Shown here in pieces: positions 20,652-32,295 of a stretch of DNA of 43,499 nucleotides. The stretch's first letter is position 1. Each line of letters begins with the position of its first letter. The position numbers were made by a program, and so were the translations under genes. The notes below the pieces were generated by a model. That model was not told the origin of the DNA. It searched no databases and saw only the letters and a program-made list of their open reading frames with translations. Origin of the DNA: Candidatus Saccharimonadota bacterium (GTDB lineage: Bacteria > Patescibacteriota > Saccharimonadia > Saccharimonadales > UBA10212); the NCBI GenBank assembly GCA_016234585.1, contig JACRBB010000029.1:1-43499 (forward strand), read 5' to 3'.

Positions 20652-20720
20652 GCGGTTATCGCTTGTAGTATAATATTATTAGCTGTTTTGCAAGAAGAGC
20701 ACCAGACTTGAGAGGTGAAA

Positions 20721-21242
20721 ATGAGAAAGGTATTGTGTGCTGTCACAATGACAGGGGCAGCACTGGCTCTTCCGTTAGGCGGAGGAGCAGCTCAAGCATC
20801 CGTGACCGATACGCTTCGAGCCTGCCTGAGGTACGAAGGGCGCGCCTACGAGGTGTGTACCGCATATGTCGGCAACTCCTCGCTACTGGCACTGGTTCCC
20901 TACTATAAGTGGGCCAACTCATCCAATCCAGCTCGTGCTGTGGCCGTCACCAACCGCCTGCGCTCTCGCTACTACGGAGCGGCTCGACGCTTGATTGCCG
21001 GGCGGGTCAACGGCTGGCCGGCTGGCGAGAACAAGGTCTCCATACCGCTTTTCACGATCCTGAGCGTCAGCTCCGATCTCGAGCACAATCGCGCGATCCT
21101 GAGGACGCGGGAAACATGGAGAGTTCGAACCAAGAGCAATGGTCGGACCATCTACCGCGAGATCGGTCGTCCTCACCGCATTACCATGAAGAGAGTCCAA
21201 GGACTCGTTCTTCACAAGTGGGTGGTCTCCGCGATCAGGTAG
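20721..21242 (+). CDS. Secreted hypothetical protein
   Basis: RBS agagg + ATG; signal peptide MRKVLCAVTMTGAALALPLGGGAAQA; followed by a strong terminator. Confidence 0.65.
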   Translation: MRKVLCAVTMTGAALALPLGGGAAQASVTDTLRACLRYEGRAYEVCTAYVGNSSLLALVPYYKWANSSNPARAVAVTNRLRSRYYGAARRLIAGRVNGWPAGENKVSIPLFTILSVSSDLEHNRAILRTRETWRVRTKSNGRTIYREIGRPHRITMKRVQGLVLHKWVVSAIR

Positions 21243-21289: not shown

Positions 21290-21347
21290 GTTATTTATAC
21301 TAAAAATATTCAATCTACTTTGGGTTGCCAAAGTAGCAAAGCAACCA

Positions 21348-21430
21348 GGCTGCGTTTTTTCTTGATGTAATCTCACTCATGGAAAGCTGATGCCTGTCCA
21401 GCACTTATGTATAAGTGCTGTGGCCCGGAC
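21348..21430 (+). repeat. Left arm of a perfect 83-bp inverted repeat
   Basis: ggctgcgttttttcttgatgtaatctcactcatgg…gtggcccggac is the exact reverse complement of 28387-28469. Confidence 0.97.
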
Positions 21431-21446
21431 CCAAGAAAGTAAAACA

Positions 21447-21475
21447 TTGCAAAGTGTAACCAAGTATTGTTTAAT
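21447..21475 (+). promoter_or_regulatory. Putative promoter at the left end of the element
   Basis: TTGCAA-N17-TTTAAT, 8 nt before ATG 21484. Confidence 0.5.
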
Positions 21476-21483
21476 ATATAAAT

Positions 21484-21894
21484 ATGTATAAGCCAAGTAT
21501 TAGGTTTAATGGTGAGCAGTACCAGGGGCTCGAGGATCATCTTGGAGATCTTGCCGAAAAGCTTGTTGGTATTGTGAATGCTACGGCATTCAACAGACTA
21601 AAGGAAAATGCCCTACGCGATCCGACAGATATTGAGGTGACACCAGTCATGTTAGAAAGGCCCTCATTTATTGTACGGTCTTGGCATGAGACAGAGTCTC
21701 CAGGGGGGTCGGTAGGCATATTACAGCCACAGGATCTAACCCTAGAAGTTAAGATGGACAAGGAAGACATGTACCTAACTACCGAAGAGGATTCAAGCTA
21801 CAGGTTAACAACAAGGGAAGCGTTCTTGATGGTCACCATAGGTGGTACGGCTATGCTTATGGGTGCCTTATCCAACCCAACAATTGGTGAATAA
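21484..21894 (+). CDS. Hypothetical protein (136 aa) with C-terminal hydrophobic helix
   Basis: Complete ORF with promoter-like upstream sequence; no family recognised. Confidence 0.6.
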   Translation: MYKPSIRFNGEQYQGLEDHLGDLAEKLVGIVNATAFNRLKENALRDPTDIEVTPVMLERPSFIVRSWHETESPGGSVGILQPQDLTLEVKMDKEDMYLTTEEDSSYRLTTREAFLMVTIGGTAMLMGALSNPTIGE

Positions 21895-21950
21895 ACAAGC
21901 TGTACAACTCCTTATAACAGGGGTATAATGCGGGTTAATTGGAGTTTTGA

Positions 21951-22385
21951 ATGTCTAACAAAAAAATGACTGAGGACTTTGTTAAAAACTCAGTCATCAA
22001 ATGGCTATCCAGAAATGGTTGGGGGCATTTTGAATTTGATGAACTACACACCCACGGTGTTGATATAAGGGCGCGGAACGTTAGATACAGTCGCTATTTT
22101 TTTATTGAGGCAAAAGGCGAAAGCATTAACCGCTCTGGTCTAGAAGTAGCTTTTATATATTCGCTTGGACAGATTATCACGCGGATGAAAGATAGTGGCT
22201 TAACAAGAAATTATTACGGCTTAGCCCTGCCTGCGAACAGTGCAAAAATTGCACTGAGACGAATTTCATGGCAAGTCGCTAAAAAACTTTTACTCTATAT
22301 ATTCTCCGTTAGTGCAGACGGAAAAGTTATTCAGTATAGCTGGAGAGAAATAAAGGATCGACAAACGATCTCAGCAGGATCATAA
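21951..22385 (+). CDS. PD-(D/E)XK nuclease-like protein
   Basis: SD ggag; GVDIRARNVRYSRYFFIEAKGE fits D…ExK; first gene of the defence operon. Confidence 0.6.
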   Translation: MSNKKMTEDFVKNSVIKWLSRNGWGHFEFDELHTHGVDIRARNVRYSRYFFIEAKGESINRSGLEVAFIYSLGQIITRMKDSGLTRNYYGLALPANSAKIALRRISWQVAKKLLLYIFSVSADGKVIQYSWREIKDRQTISAGS

Positions 22386-22413
22386 TGGTTGCTGTAGATG
22401 ATTAAATGTAAAA

Positions 22414-23253
22414 ATGGCTAAGCCATTCCTCAAGTGGGTTGGTGGTAAAACTCAGCTGCTAGGCCAGTTTGCCGACATACTGCCGCCTCAGACAAAAATA
22501 AAAAAATATTATGAACCATTCGTGGGTGGAGGGGCTGTATTCTTCTACTTAGAACCGGCTGAGGCAGTTATCAATGATCTAAATTCACACCTCATTTATT
22601 TGTATCGTCACGTAAAGAGCAGTCTTCAAGAACTTATAGATGAACTAGAAATAATACAGAGTCAATATCTTCCTTTAAATCATGAAGAACGAAAAAACTA
22701 TTACTATGAGGCGAGGATCAAGTATAACAAGATAAAAACAGATGACTCAGTTACAAAGTCAGCGCTATTAATCTTTCTTAATAAAACCTGCTTTAACGGA
22801 ATGTATAGAGAAAATCCTAAAGGTGAATATAATATTCCATTTGGTCGCAACAATACGGTAGCTATTTTTGATCCAGCAATTCTGGAAAATGCCTCTAGGG
22901 TACTTCAGCAAACAAAAATTATGTATGGGTCTTACAAAAATTCTCTACGGTCGGCAGGAAACGGCGACTTTGTATATTTAGATCCGCCCTATGTTCCCTT
23001 GAATAACACCACCGCAAACTTTACACAGTACGTCAGTGAGGATTTTAATACGCGGCAACACGACAAGCTGAAAATAATTTTTGATGAGTTGGAGAAAAGA
23101 GGATGCAAAGTCATGCTCAGCAACTCGGATACAAAACTGGTAAGGAGTAAGTATAAAGAGTACAATATAACTCCAGTTTACGCAAACCGATTCGTAAATT
23201 GCAAACCAGGTGGTAGGGGTAAAATTAGCGAACTAGTCATAACTAACTATTAA
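22414..23253 (+). CDS. DNA adenine methylase (D12 class, Dam/M.DpnII-like)
   Basis: FLKWVGGKTQLL, YYEPFVGGGAVFFYL, FVYLDPPYVPL, NRFVNCKPGGRGKISELVITNY. Confidence 0.95.
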   Translation: MAKPFLKWVGGKTQLLGQFADILPPQTKIKKYYEPFVGGGAVFFYLEPAEAVINDLNSHLIYLYRHVKSSLQELIDELEIIQSQYLPLNHEERKNYYYEARIKYNKIKTDDSVTKSALLIFLNKTCFNGMYRENPKGEYNIPFGRNNTVAIFDPAILENASRVLQQTKIMYGSYKNSLRSAGNGDFVYLDPPYVPLNNTTANFTQYVSEDFNTRQHDKLKIIFDELEKRGCKVMLSNSDTKLVRSKYKEYNITPVYANRFVNCKPGGRGKISELVITNY

Positions 23254-23256
23254 CAG

Positions 23257-25290
23257 ATGTTAAAAGAACTTAAATTAAAACAGGTTTACAGCTCAGAAGC
23301 AGATAACTTGATACGGGACTTCTATGTACCTGTATTATCCACAGCCAAAAAATATCAAAGAATTACTGGGTATTTTTCGTCCAGAGCCATATTAGCAGCG
23401 AGTCAAGGAATGGCTAACTTCTTCATGAACGGCGGACAATATCAACTCATCATGGGGGCACAGCTTACACCAGAAGATTATAAAACTATAAAAAACACAG
23501 ACCTAACCTTAGAAAAAGTACTATTAGAAAAGTTATATTTCGATCCAGCTCATTTTATAACTGAAATAGAAGTAGATTACTTACGAGTATTCAGTCAGCT
23601 TTTATTATCTGGTTCGTTAGAGATCAAAATAGCAATAGTGGATAAAGACAACGAGGGAATATTCCACGAAAAAGTGGGTATTTTAGAAGACAAAGCTGGA
23701 GATAAGATAAGTTTTAGTGGATCTATCAATGAGACAGCCGCAGGTTGGGGGGCCAATATTGAGGAGTTCAAGGTCTTTAGAAGTTGGCTACCTGAAGAAA
23801 AGCCTTACCAAGAGAGAGACATAGAAAGATTCAATGCATACTGGAATAATGAATCGCACCTCAAGGCTCTACCTTTGCCGGAAGCACTCAAGGATAAGAT
23901 ACTAAAATGTTCTTCTGCACATGAAGATGTGAAGCATTCCTTAAAAAAGATTCAGCATTACGAAGAAGATCTAAGGCCTGCACCAAAAACACTGTATCGT
24001 TATCAGGAAGACGCGGTTGCTAGCTGGGTGAAGAACAACTACAGAGGTATCTTTGAGATGGCGACAGGCACCGGGAAGACCCTCACAGCCTTGGGGGCTA
24101 TCCAAAAAATATATGATTTCAATAAAAGGTACTTCTGTGTCGTAGGTGTCCCCCAGAAACATCTCGTCAGACAATGGAGAACCGATATAGAAATTCAGCT
24201 ACCCAAAGCTCATATTTTGGAGGCACACAGCTCGGCTGGGGAATGGAGAGAAAAAATACGAGATCTAGTTAGTGACTATGAAGATAATATTGTTAACGAA
24301 GTAGTCATAATCGCTACCCATGCAACTATGTCCTCTAAAGATTTCATAGATATCGTTGATAAGTCCGATCTTAGTTTGATCGCTGATGAAATGCATAATA
24401 TGGGTGCAGCGCAGACTAGAAAAGGCTTAACGAATTACTACACCTATCGGATCGGACTAAGTGCTACGCCACTTAGGGCGTACGATGAGGAAGGAACGGA
24501 TTTCCTAGAGCAATACTTCAGTGGAGCTATATTTAAGTATCCTCTGGACCAAGCGATTAAGGATGGATGGTTAACGCCATACAAATACTATCCTATCTAT
24601 GTCGAACTAGATTCTGATGAGACACAGGAGTATGTTCAACTGTCTAAAAAAATCACCCAGGCATCCTTTATTGAAGGAGGAGGTGAATATCTAGAAAGAT
24701 TGCTGCTAATTCGAAGTAGAATTATCAAAAAGTGTCGTAATAAGACAATTGCTTTTGAGCATTTGCTAGAAAGGCTGGTGAGCGAGGATGGAGAAATAAA
24801 TCATCTGCTTGTTTATTGCGACCAAGGACAGCAGCTAGAGGATGCCCAGGTAATAGTGAATAAAAAAGGTATTATTAATCATAGGTTTACTCAATCTGAG
24901 AGCATCAGTGATAGAAAAAAAATTCTCGATCTTTTTGATGATGGATCCTACCAGTGTCTCTTGGCTATAAAGTGCTTAGATGAGGGAGTAAATGTCCCTT
25001 CAACCAAACAAGCAATTATACTTGCGAGTACTACCAACCCTCGAGAGTATATCCAAAGGAGAGGACGAGTCTTGCGTAAATATCCAGGCAAGGAGTTTGC
25101 AATAATTTACGACTTTGTGGTGGTACCCGACAGCTCAACGCTCGATGCTGAAACATTTAAATTCGAGAGAAAAATAATAGCAGGCGAGCTAAGACGTATA
25201 AAGGATTTTATAGAAAGCTCTGATAATAAAGCGGAGGGCCTAAACAGTATTTATAGAATAACTGACAAATATCAGGTATATTTTGAGTAA
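23257..25290 (+). CDS. PLD-like phosphodiesterase domain fused to SF2 DExH helicase
   Basis: HEKVGILED…ISFSGSINETAAGW (HKD-type); MATGTGKTLTALGAI, DEMH, LSATPLR, QRRGRVLRKYPGK. Confidence 0.92.
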   Translation: MLKELKLKQVYSSEADNLIRDFYVPVLSTAKKYQRITGYFSSRAILAASQGMANFFMNGGQYQLIMGAQLTPEDYKTIKNTDLTLEKVLLEKLYFDPAHFITEIEVDYLRVFSQLLLSGSLEIKIAIVDKDNEGIFHEKVGILEDKAGDKISFSGSINETAAGWGANIEEFKVFRSWLPEEKPYQERDIERFNAYWNNESHLKALPLPEALKDKILKCSSAHEDVKHSLKKIQHYEEDLRPAPKTLYRYQEDAVASWVKNNYRGIFEMATGTGKTLTALGAIQKIYDFNKRYFCVVGVPQKHLVRQWRTDIEIQLPKAHILEAHSSAGEWREKIRDLVSDYEDNIVNEVVIIATHATMSSKDFIDIVDKSDLSLIADEMHNMGAAQTRKGLTNYYTYRIGLSATPLRAYDEEGTDFLEQYFSGAIFKYPLDQAIKDGWLTPYKYYPIYVELDSDETQEYVQLSKKITQASFIEGGGEYLERLLLIRSRIIKKCRNKTIAFEHLLERLVSEDGEINHLLVYCDQGQQLEDAQVIVNKKGIINHRFTQSESISDRKKILDLFDDGSYQCLLAIKCLDEGVNVPSTKQAIILASTTNPREYIQRRGRVLRKYPGKEFAIIYDFVVVPDSSTLDAETFKFERKIIAGELRRIKDFIESSDNKAEGLNSIYRITDKYQVYFE

Positions 25291-25298
25291 GGCAAATT

Positions 25299-25496
25299 AT
25301 GAGAATACTAAACCCTGAGATAGAGGCCCACATTAACGCACTACCCGATACATACAGAAGAGAGAAGAAACTTCTGAAGGATCTTCTCGTGTTTGAGCAC
25401 GAGCACTCAGACAAAGCAAACTACGCATTCAAACAAGAAATTCTACAAATGGTAGAAGAAGTGCTGAGAGATTTTCCAGATGATACAAATAAATAA
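25299..25496 (+). CDS. Small protein (65 aa) linking helicase and ATPase genes
   Basis: ATG 9 nt after the helicase stop; overlaps the next ORF by 17 nt. Confidence 0.65.
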   Translation: MRILNPEIEAHINALPDTYRREKKLLKDLLVFEHEHSDKANYAFKQEILQMVEEVLRDFPDDTNK

Positions 25497-27420
25497 AATA
25501 CGGATTAAAAATTTCCGCCAATACAGGTCTCTGGAACTGGCCTTTCCAGACGACAAAGGCATCTACTTATTTATTGGGAAAAATGGGATGGGAAAATCCA
25601 ACTTCCTGAACGCTATTTGCTGGTGTTTATACGAAGATATGCCTTTCCGCGCTCATGATAACACCGACAACAAATTAAATATTTATAATGAGGAATCTCT
25701 AAACGCCTCGGATAGCAAGGTAATCTTAGCTGAGGTGGAGCTAGAGGTAACAATTGATAAAACTCAGTATAAATTCCAACGTAAACTTCACAATCTGCCA
25801 GTGGGGAATACCAATACAGACTTTAAAGCTTTCAGATTAGATAATGGCGACTGGCAGTTAATACCTAATGCAACGCACTACATTGATAATTTTCTGCCTA
25901 GGTCTTTACGACAATTCTTCTTGTTTGACGGCGAAGGTGTACGAGGTCTATTCAAGGGGGACTACTCGACTAATCTAAAAATGAGTATCTGGAAGGTCTC
26001 TCATATTGACCTGCTTAATACCACGATCAATCACCTGGATACGGTTGCTAGTGAGTTGAGAAAAACTCTTGCGCTTGAAATGCCCGAATTAGAATCCACC
26101 ATACAAGCAATATCTGAGCACGAAACGCTGATTCAAAGAAAAAAGAGTGATCTTTTCGAAAATTCAAAGCAAAAAAAGGAGCTCGAATTAAATCTCCATA
26201 AAATCTCACAGAGATATAAAGAACATGCCAAATATAGGGAACTACAGATTAAACGTGAGTCTTTAGAAAACGAGAAGCATCGTTTGCTTAGTCAGCTTGA
26301 GGATATACGACGTGACGTAACGGCATTATATGTATCGTTGGGTCCCTTCGTATTCGTGGCAGATGAACTTTCAAAATATACTTCACAGATTGGTTTGCAA
26401 AGAGATAAAGGAACTATACCTGCGTCTATAAAACCCACCTTAATCAACGACTTACTTGAGACCAAGATGTGCATTTGCGGACGACATATCAGCCCCGCGG
26501 AAGAGTCTCATTTGCACCAACTACTTAACCAGAACCAGGAGGCGGACAAGAAAGAGTTCCTGGTCGATGATGGCTACATACTCGGCAATTTAAATCATAC
26601 GATATCTAGCAGCTACGAGAGTTTGCTATCCAAAAGAAAAACGATTAGAGAGTTAGAGCAACAAAATGAAAACATTGAGCGTGAACTTAAGGAGATAAGT
26701 GATAATCTGGTTAGTGCCCCAGAGGCCGAAATCGGTAATATAGAAACTCAGATCAGGATTATGCACGAAGAAGGAGGCAACTTGGCCGTGGAAGCCTCTA
26801 AACTTGTGCAAGAGATACAAGACTACGAACAAAAGCTAAAAGAATCTAAAGACGAAGTCCAAAAAATGGCTGAGACACAAGAGAAATTAAAAAAAGATAC
26901 TCAAAAACTTAGTTTGCTGGAATCAACTGTTGAGAAAGCTAAAAAAGTACGAGACAAGGTAATCGACCAGGTTCGAAAAAACGTGTCATTCCACACCAAT
27001 CAATATTTCCACGATCTAATGTGGAAAAGTGACTTTACTAAACTTGAATTCACTGACGGCTATAAGATAATAATTCAGAAGGAAGGAGTTGTAGAGCCAA
27101 TCGATCATACTAGATTGAGCAATGGTGAAACCAAAGTTTTAGGATTTGCCACTATAAAGGCCTTGACTGAACTATCCGGTTTCGAGAACTTCCCTGCTTT
27201 TATAGATGCACCTGTAGAGCAATTAGATCAGCAGGTAGAAAAAAATCTATTAGATTTATTACCAAACTTTATGCCCGAAAAACAAGTATTTGTCTTTTCA
27301 CTGGACGGTGAGAATATAGTTGAATTCGGGAAAGAAAAGATACCGAATGATAGACTATTTAAACTAGTGAGAGAACCAAATTCGTTAAGTAGCAAGATCG
27401 TGAATTACTATGGCAACTGA
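25480..27420 (+). CDS. DndD/SMC-like AAA ATPase with coiled coil
   Basis: IRIKNFRQYRSLELAF…IGKNGMGKSNFLNAICWCLY; CICGRHI hook-like motif; LSNGETKVLGFATIKALTE; PAFIDAPVEQLD. Confidence 0.9.
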   Translation: MIQINKIRIKNFRQYRSLELAFPDDKGIYLFIGKNGMGKSNFLNAICWCLYEDMPFRAHDNTDNKLNIYNEESLNASDSKVILAEVELEVTIDKTQYKFQRKLHNLPVGNTNTDFKAFRLDNGDWQLIPNATHYIDNFLPRSLRQFFLFDGEGVRGLFKGDYSTNLKMSIWKVSHIDLLNTTINHLDTVASELRKTLALEMPELESTIQAISEHETLIQRKKSDLFENSKQKKELELNLHKISQRYKEHAKYRELQIKRESLENEKHRLLSQLEDIRRDVTALYVSLGPFVFVADELSKYTSQIGLQRDKGTIPASIKPTLINDLLETKMCICGRHISPAEESHLHQLLNQNQEADKKEFLVDDGYILGNLNHTISSSYESLLSKRKTIRELEQQNENIERELKEISDNLVSAPEAEIGNIETQIRIMHEEGGNLAVEASKLVQEIQDYEQKLKESKDEVQKMAETQEKLKKDTQKLSLLESTVEKAKKVRDKVIDQVRKNVSFHTNQYFHDLMWKSDFTKLEFTDGYKIIIQKEGVVEPIDHTRLSNGETKVLGFATIKALTELSGFENFPAFIDAPVEQLDQQVEKNLLDLLPNFMPEKQVFVFSLDGENIVEFGKEKIPNDRLFKLVREPNSLSSKIVNYYGN

Positions 27421-27844
27421 ATCAGTTAAATACCCACAGTTTATTAATATGGATGCTGAGATAAAGGCTAAATATCTAGATCCGCTAGTATCAGATCCTA
27501 ATACGATATTCTTCAAACAAGACCTAGGGGAAGCATATCTAATGGCTGGTGTCTATGGCTTTATGTTTGATCTAAAAAAAACGACCAAAAAGATAGCCAA
27601 TATTAGAGTGTTCGATAGGTGGCAGGATCAATACAAAGTCTTATTTAGAGTTATTGCAGCTGCAGATAAGAAGTATGATTTCGAAGTTCTATTAGATGGT
27701 GCAAAGACTTTAAAAATTGTTGAAGAGTACGCTAATGGCGGAGCTCAAAGACTATATGAAGATGCCACCTTATTAAACTCCTCAGAAACGCTTGAGAAAA
27801 AAATATGGGGAAAAATAAAAGCAATTAGCTCCAAGACTGAGTAG
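27410..27844 (+). CDS. Hypothetical defence-associated small protein (144 aa)
   Basis: Overlaps the ATPase gene by 11 nt; last gene of the operon; no confident family. Confidence 0.7.
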   Translation: MATESVKYPQFINMDAEIKAKYLDPLVSDPNTIFFKQDLGEAYLMAGVYGFMFDLKKTTKKIANIRVFDRWQDQYKVLFRVIAAADKKYDFEVLLDGAKTLKIVEEYANGGAQRLYEDATLLNSSETLEKKIWGKIKAISSKTE

Positions 27845-28124
27845 CCCAGCCCTATAGCCTGAACAATGTCGGTGTGGAGTATATTTTGTCACACAATAGT
27901 TTGCTGCATCCTTAGATGTTATTGATCAGGCTACCAGAGTCATTATTAACGGCAAAAGTAGTTCATTATTATGATAAAAACCCTGAAGAAATTCCTCTCA
28001 TCGAATCTCAAAAATGATGGGTAGACACTTGACTTGTTAAGTATTCTTTAGTTTTTAAGATTCGGATTCGAGCCATTCGATAGGCTCAGGCTAAAGAAAA
28101 CAGAGAGGGATAATTAGTTTCGTG

Positions 28125-28334
28125 AAAAGAAGAACCGGGACTGGCCGGGGAGGATTACTTTCGCACCTCCCCGGCCAGTCACCGATGCTAGCTCGGTTTT
28201 GGTATTGCGAGCACCAGCTAGCACAACCACGATGTGCGAGGTGTTGGACGAATCGCTTTCGAGAAAAGACCAGTGTTTCGGCTGGACTAGTCAGGATTGC
28301 GACGGGGCCATATCCTCGCTCGAACGTGGTTGGT
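28125..28334 (-). ncRNA. Candidate structured RNA (three tandem stem-loops, terminator-like last hairpin)
   Basis: H1 28224-28231/28325-28332 plus 28236-28241/28314-28319; H2 28186-28193/28216-28223; H3 15-bp perfect 28139-28153/28166-28180 followed by U-rich tract; promoter TTGCTA-N17-TATGAT. Confidence 0.5.
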
Positions 28335-28340
28335 AAAAAA

Positions 28341-28369
28341 ATCATAATGTCTTTTTCCATGTTTAGCAA
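28341..28369 (-). promoter_or_regulatory. Putative sigma70-type promoter for the candidate ncRNA
   Basis: Minus strand TTGCTA (28369-28364), 17-nt spacer, TATGAT (28346-28341). Confidence 0.5.
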
Positions 28370-28386
28370 ATGGTTGCCCGAGTTGA

Positions 28387-28469
28387 GTCCGGGCCACAGC
28401 ACTTATACATAAGTGCTGGACAGGCATCAGCTTTCCATGAGTGAGATTACATCAAGAAAAAACGCAGCC
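28387..28469 (-). repeat. Right arm of the perfect 83-bp inverted repeat
   Basis: Exact reverse complement of 21348-21430. Confidence 0.97.
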
Positions 28470-28608
28470 CGGCGTTTGGCCACACCTTTACGCTAAAGGT
28501 GTGAAAAATGTTTGCCGACTTTACAAAGTAGCCCAAGCCTCTTATAAATCCGTAAGAATAAATATTTCTTGCATATCGGCGTATAATTATAGGTAAGTAG
28601 GAGGGTCT

Positions 28609-32115: not shown

Positions 32116-32288
32116 ATTATCAAGAGTGCGGTTCCCTCCGTCGTCAAGACTATGGAGGGTCCTCCGAAGCTTTTTGCGAAGGAGGAAGGGTTCTGGCCCG
32201 ATGACCCGCCGGCAACCCAGTCAAGCAGAGGTTTACCCTGAGCTTGTCGAAGGGTGCCACATCCAGCCCGGATTCCGGGATAGATAAG
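32116..32288 (+). promoter_or_regulatory. SAM-I riboswitch (S-box) upstream of metK, with expanded L3
   Basis: TTATCAAGAGTG … GGTTCTGGCCCGATGACCCGCCGGCAACC … GGTGCCACATCCAGCCCG … AGATAAG. Confidence 0.93.
32236..32254 (-). repeat. REP-like palindromic insertion in SAM-I riboswitch loop L3
   Basis: + strand CCCTGAGCTTGTCGAAGGG, reverse complement CCCTTCGACAAGCTCAGGG. Confidence 0.75.
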
Positions 32289-32295
32289 CTTACTG

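Follow-up and report, generated by a model that had tools for sequence, protein, structure and literature searches.

Pbe-type genes often have a methylase nearby in place of Dnd genes (PMC6459918), and CxC-ATPase-DndE systems have been described with an HKD-helicase and a methylase (PMC10853773). Non-coding RNA is not mentioned in either of these two papers. The window, the whole 43.5-kb stretch of DNA analysed here, contains a defence island of this type at 21435-28382, with a unit of three hairpins just inside its right end. Like the PbeABCD and CxC-ATPase-DndE systems (PMC6459918, PMC10853773), the island operon has PbeA, PbeC, a small last gene, and a methylase. The PbeA-like island protein is a PLD nuclease and helicase, and the last gene (144 aa) is at the PbeD/DndE position. 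Four other genomes (L066-L069) carry homologous operons that share the ATPase and the small last gene, and the island gene order is the same as in these operons. The gene arrangement of the island is already known. The island and its boundaries comprise:

21484-27844, plus strand: island genes, namely ORF1, a 144-aa ORF, a D12 N6-adenine methylase, a PbeA-like gene, a PbeC/DndD-like ATPase, and the 144-aa last gene
21345-21434, plus strand: left boundary repeat, an inverted copy 98% identical to the right one
28383-28472, minus strand: right boundary repeat, a 90-bp inverted copy and truncated member of a dispersed structured (Y) repeat

ORF1 (window 21484-21894; L011 4275-4691) encodes 136-138 aa and is common to one Pbe-type island and one type IIG restriction island; neither copy has a Pfam match, and the window copy is also without a PADLOC or PHROGs match. 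A promoter-like sequence, CTGTACAACTCCTTATAACAGGGGTATAAT, is common to window 21899-21943, L012 603-648, and L011 3670-3700 and precedes cassette-like genes. Just outside the left repeat, a GC-rich 175-aa ORF (window 20715-21242) with a signal-peptide-like start and atypical codon use has no family match and looks foreign.

An apparently shared locus and its boundary repeats

The two boundary repeats are truncated members of a dispersed repeat that recurs within the genus and the family. Contig C34 of the sister genome G001 carries a different island, which consists of a zeta toxin, a type IIG restriction-modification protein, and an RHH antitoxin and is likewise bounded by inverted repeat copies (111-nt and 88-nt blocks, 85-87%). 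At the nucleotide level, the two islands match over an extended stretch only in the ORF1 homologue (about 65% identity). On the right, the window and C34 have the same neighbours, namely a beta-lactamase-fold gene and metK, the latter with a SAM riboswitch; the left-hand neighbours are found on contig C39 of G001, as judged from reading ORFs. With C39 joined to C34, as we infer, the locus resembles a single hotspot whose cargo can be exchanged. Comparison of window 21345-28472 with L011 1665-10340 revealed two defence islands from two species of one genus between inverted copies of the same repeat, and two different defence islands apparently occupy a common locus. Such an apparently shared locus with inverted structured repeats offers a concrete handle on defence-gene swapping in small genomes. 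The SAM riboswitch (window 32168-32290, plus strand) lies directly 5' of the S-adenosylmethionine synthetase gene, and the same arrangement is present in L011.

The dispersed repeat is ~170-230 nt long and has the conserved core GAACTC-(stem-loop)-YCAAACANC. Its copies are:

L011 1665-1877, 8857-9020, and 10126-10340
L012 76-312 and 690-887
L013 8280-8741 and 17202-17417
L076-L096

By pattern search the core was present in 10 of 16 related genomes, with at most 10 copies per genome; the reversed-pattern control also gave 0-2 matches per genome, so some of the single matches in more distant genomes are probably due to chance. Within the window the core pattern is absent. Most copies lie downstream of a same-strand ORF. 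An alignment of 14 copies had pair-keeping changes on both sides in 18 of 21 predicted pairs, and one of 19 copies that included the boundary type had compensatory changes in 11 of 15 pairs, both counts being inflated by the relatedness of the copies. For pairs seen in three or four different forms, it is difficult to find an explanation other than a structure that has probably been kept. No Rfam family was assigned to the dispersed repeat at the gathering threshold in L011-L014, which include several of its copies, and it has a stronger claim to be a new structured element than the three-hairpin unit has. Viewed by eye, the loop of the hairpin that starts the repeat (window 21318-21350, L012, L011) is often complementary to nearby downstream bases (e.g. 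GGTTGC / GCAACC), which suggests a pseudoknot.

The three hairpins and their signal-like sequences

The hairpin region contains the following features:

28224-28332, minus strand: H1, a long imperfect hairpin with an 8-bp foot, CAACCACG (28224-28231) / CGTGGTTG (28325-28332)
28186-28223, minus strand: H2, with arms TGCTAGCT (28186-28193) / AGCTAGCA (28216-28223)
28139-28180, minus strand: H3, with arms at 28139-28153 and 28166-28180, 15 bp, GC-rich, 100% complementary, 12-nt loop
28341-28369, minus strand: sigma-70-like promoter TTGCTA-N17-TATGAT, 9/12 matches, by consensus match only
28124-28138, minus strand: tail CCGGTTCTTCTTTTC after H3, T-rich and C-interrupted by direct reading
28122-28412, plus strand, and 28091-28402, minus strand: overlapping ORFs, each strand being open for ~100 codons

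All three hairpins described by the sequence-only reading are present at these coordinates, and the three-hairpin structure is real as a property of the sequence. Inside the foot of H1, the 109-nt fold continues with a GCGAGG/CCTCGC pairing and then with short stems that have small internal loops between them. H3 is the longest perfect hairpin of the window (15 bp; the runner-up has 12 bp), and perfect hairpins of at least 15 bp are expected by chance about 0.001 times. The folding check that had been suggested gave an MFE of -101.6 kcal/mol and a z of -8.0 for the 228-nt stretch on the minus strand (0/200 shuffles as good), and -107.1 kcal/mol and -7.8 on the plus strand (no shuffle as good). 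Folded singly on the minus strand, H1, H2, and H3 reached z values of -5.4, -3.6, and -7.8, respectively, and each hairpin alone beating its shuffles counts toward a reading as an sRNA unit. Because both strands fold well, the fold leaves the strand undecided, and the equal folding of the plus strand counts against the sRNA-unit reading; the strand is indicated only by the promoter-like match and the T-rich tail.

The proposed TTGCTA-N17-TATGAT sequence was found at 28369-28341 of the minus strand and predicts a start near 28334, at the foot of H1. A rival promoter-like match with the same score (9/12) lies on the plus strand at 27946-27975, and chance alone would give about 1.6 promoter-like sites in the 900-bp region; both count against the sRNA-unit reading. 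At the opposite end of the unit, on the same strand as the promoter-like match, the sequence CCGGTTCTTCTTTTC does follow H3 as had been noted, and the 15-bp stem of H3 with its tail UUCUUCUUUUC is a possible intrinsic terminator with an interrupted U tract. H3, with its 12-nt loop, was not in the list of a terminator scan that considered only loops of up to 8 nt, which, like the interrupted tract, counts against the sRNA-unit reading. No U tract is present past H3 on the plus strand.

The hairpins might alternatively act as a barrier to transcription where the island ends: H3 and H2 would block plus-strand read-through from the Pbe genes and minus-strand transcripts from outside, and no discrete RNA would be made. 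Their location 295 bp past the end of the convergent operon, the strong fold on both strands, and a plus-strand terminator-like site at 28181-28197 inside the unit are consistent with such a role. One hairpin would be enough for it, however; the elaborate 109-nt fold of H1 is unneeded by a terminator, and the U tract is missing after H3 on the plus strand. We consider a pure barrier possible but somewhat unlikely.

It is barely credible that one of the overlapping ORFs is a real gene in which the hairpins are incidental: although each strand is open for ~100 codons, the codon scores of both ORFs are -0.13, the level of shadow ORFs, compared with 0.01 to 0.26 for the real genes of the window, and neither has a family match in PADLOC or PHROGs. 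The hairpin region thus looks non-coding, and both ORFs look spurious, in agreement with the sequence-only reading. The comparison with Rfam that it had also proposed was negative, as no Rfam 15 covariance model identified a family for the hairpin region at gathering or relaxed thresholds (best score Pyrobac-1, 22.4 bits vs a threshold of 40, E 0.16).

Relatives and possible insertion of the hairpin segment

The source genome (546 kb, 35 contigs, 78% complete) has one copy of the hairpin segment. Its size, together with a 16S signature seen in a member of the family, points to Saccharibacteria (Patescibacteria) as the probable group. BLAST of the segment yielded no relative in 148 related genomes, in which only the boundary repeat matched, recovered only its own copy among 393 class genomes and 381 phylum genomes, and found no homologue in plasmids and phages. 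Covariance models built from the single sequences of H1 and of H2+H3 retrieved only the query itself from 61 relatives. In searches with exact patterns taken from each of the three hairpins, one 19-mer had 0 matches in genome contigs, and in viral contigs the H3 arm had 45 chance matches and an H1 17-mer had 3, with no extended similarity. A protein-led search among named genomes confirmed no occurrence of the same island, and literature searches on this small-genome group turned up no paper about structured RNAs. Judged by these searches, the hairpin unit is an orphan. The absence of homologues, and with it of covariation or conservation, counts against the sRNA-unit reading.

The same models bear on the earlier suggestion that the unit could be an RNA of the defence system. 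A role as a conserved RNA component within the Pbe-type system is favoured by adjacency to the operon only, and we regard it as highly improbable: the four homologous operons (L066-L069), which have the same last gene, are without a match to either hairpin model, and directly behind the operons of L068 and L069 there is no space for such an RNA, as the next listed ORF begins 123-140 bp past the last gene. In the PbeABCD and CxC-ATPase-DndE papers (PMC6459918, PMC10853773), moreover, the text is silent on an RNA, so that the window differs from the described systems and from the four homologous loci in this respect. Since four related Pbe islands are without the hairpins, a hairpin RNA would not be a conserved part of the defence system.

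Two stretches define the surroundings of the hairpins:

28103-28372: putative inserted segment, ~270 bp with approximate edges; the flanking repeat parts are ~20 bp apart in L011 and L012
28053-28101: inner repeat segment, located directly before the Y element in L011 (10069-10113) and L012 (66-116), with alignment scores of 43 and 38, respectively

The maximum score of 200 shuffles was 21. From the inner repeat segment to the Y element the gap is about 20 bp in L011 and L012 and about 275 bp, with the hairpins, in the window. Because the flanks are nearly contiguous in L011 and L012, a ~270-bp insertion (28103-28372) is the simplest reading, which suggests that the hairpin segment was inserted between the right boundary repeat and the inner repeat segment; alternatively, the segment may be ancestral and deleted in L011 and L012. 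No target-site duplication or terminal repeats were seen at the segment edges. When 28036-28112 was compared by BLAST with 15 relatives, all matches were short and weak, and the inner repeat segment itself has therefore diverged. The impression of a GC-rich region within an AT-rich island holds for the hairpins (56% G+C, against 39% for the island measured to 28100), whereas the putative inserted segment as a whole (50%) is host-like, the flanking genome having 49-50%.

In L011, L012, and at the left end of the window, a gene that has a promoter-like sequence of its own comes after the Y element, and the hairpin unit, on the minus strand, fills the position taken elsewhere by this promoter and gene. 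The island could then be a mobile cassette platform between inverted, uncatalogued structured RNA/DNA elements, with the hairpin unit as a non-coding RNA cassette in the promoter-gene slot and the boundary elements as signals for recombination or RNA processing, which would belong to a new kind of system for gene exchange in this lineage of small genomes; we consider this proposal quite improbable.

The segment could also act as DNA, being a recombination or replication site by the boundary repeat, either as an attC-like folded single strand or as the remnant end of a small mobile element. Its imperfect palindromes beside the inverted boundary repeats of the 7-kb island and its insertion-like edges would fit such a site, as would the one-strand H1 model, which scores on both strands. 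On the other hand, the attC R boxes (RYYYAAC / GTTRRRY) are missing at the H1 feet on either strand, the genomic copy is single, terminal inverted repeats and target duplications were not seen, and the only PF00589 recombinase of the genome is encoded on another contig. We therefore judge a DNA site improbable.

A putative orphan RNA and its comparison with known systems

We regard it as evenly balanced whether the hairpins constitute an orphan, transcribed sRNA-like unit at the island boundary. RNA polymerase would start near 28334 on the minus strand from TTGCTA-N17-TATGAT, transcribe H1 and then H2, and stop after the GC-rich H3 and the U-rich tail near 28125, which would yield a structured RNA of ~210 nt. 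In favour of this reading are the small-RNA-gene order on the minus strand (promoter-like sequence, H1, H2, H3, T-rich tail), the shadow-ORF codon scores, the nearly contiguous flanks in L011 and L012, and the position after a Y element. The unit is single-copy, would be either recently acquired or fast-evolving, and would have been placed by insertion between the right boundary repeat of the island and the inner repeat segment; we infer transcription, strand, and insertion alike from the sequence. If transcribed, it most likely acts, as a guess, as a regulatory or antisense RNA that is specific to the strain and belongs to the element, not to the Pbe machinery. From the original proposal of a structured RNA gene we retain a compact, non-coding, structured unit with promoter- and terminator-like sequences on the minus strand and drop the role in the defence system. 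Neither the 90-bp inverted repeats nor the signs of an insertion figured in that proposal. A transcribed unit would mean that a defence island in a reduced genome encodes an orphan structured RNA.

The unit shares with retron msr-msd RNA that it is structured and has a long hairpin adjoining defence genes; it differs in that no reverse transcriptase (PF00078) match was found in the source assembly (78% complete), and a retron is disfavoured. Integron attC sites are likewise imperfect palindromes, and that of the unit is about 110 nt long and close to cassette-like repeats. However, the unit deviates from the R-box consensus, is single-copy, and has no adjacent integrase, a search of the genome for PF00589 having returned one protein on another contig. 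In place of R'' RYYYAAC and R' GTTRRRY, the H1 foot reads TACCAAC / GTTGTGC on the minus strand and GCACAAC / GTTGGTA on the plus strand, and an attC site is disfavoured as well. From a typical bacterial sRNA gene the unit differs in having no family match or relatives, in its interrupted U tract, and in being known from sequence alone, and it resembles such a gene in its own promoter-like sequence, two stem-loops, GC-rich terminator-like hairpin, length of ~210 nt, and apparently non-coding nature.
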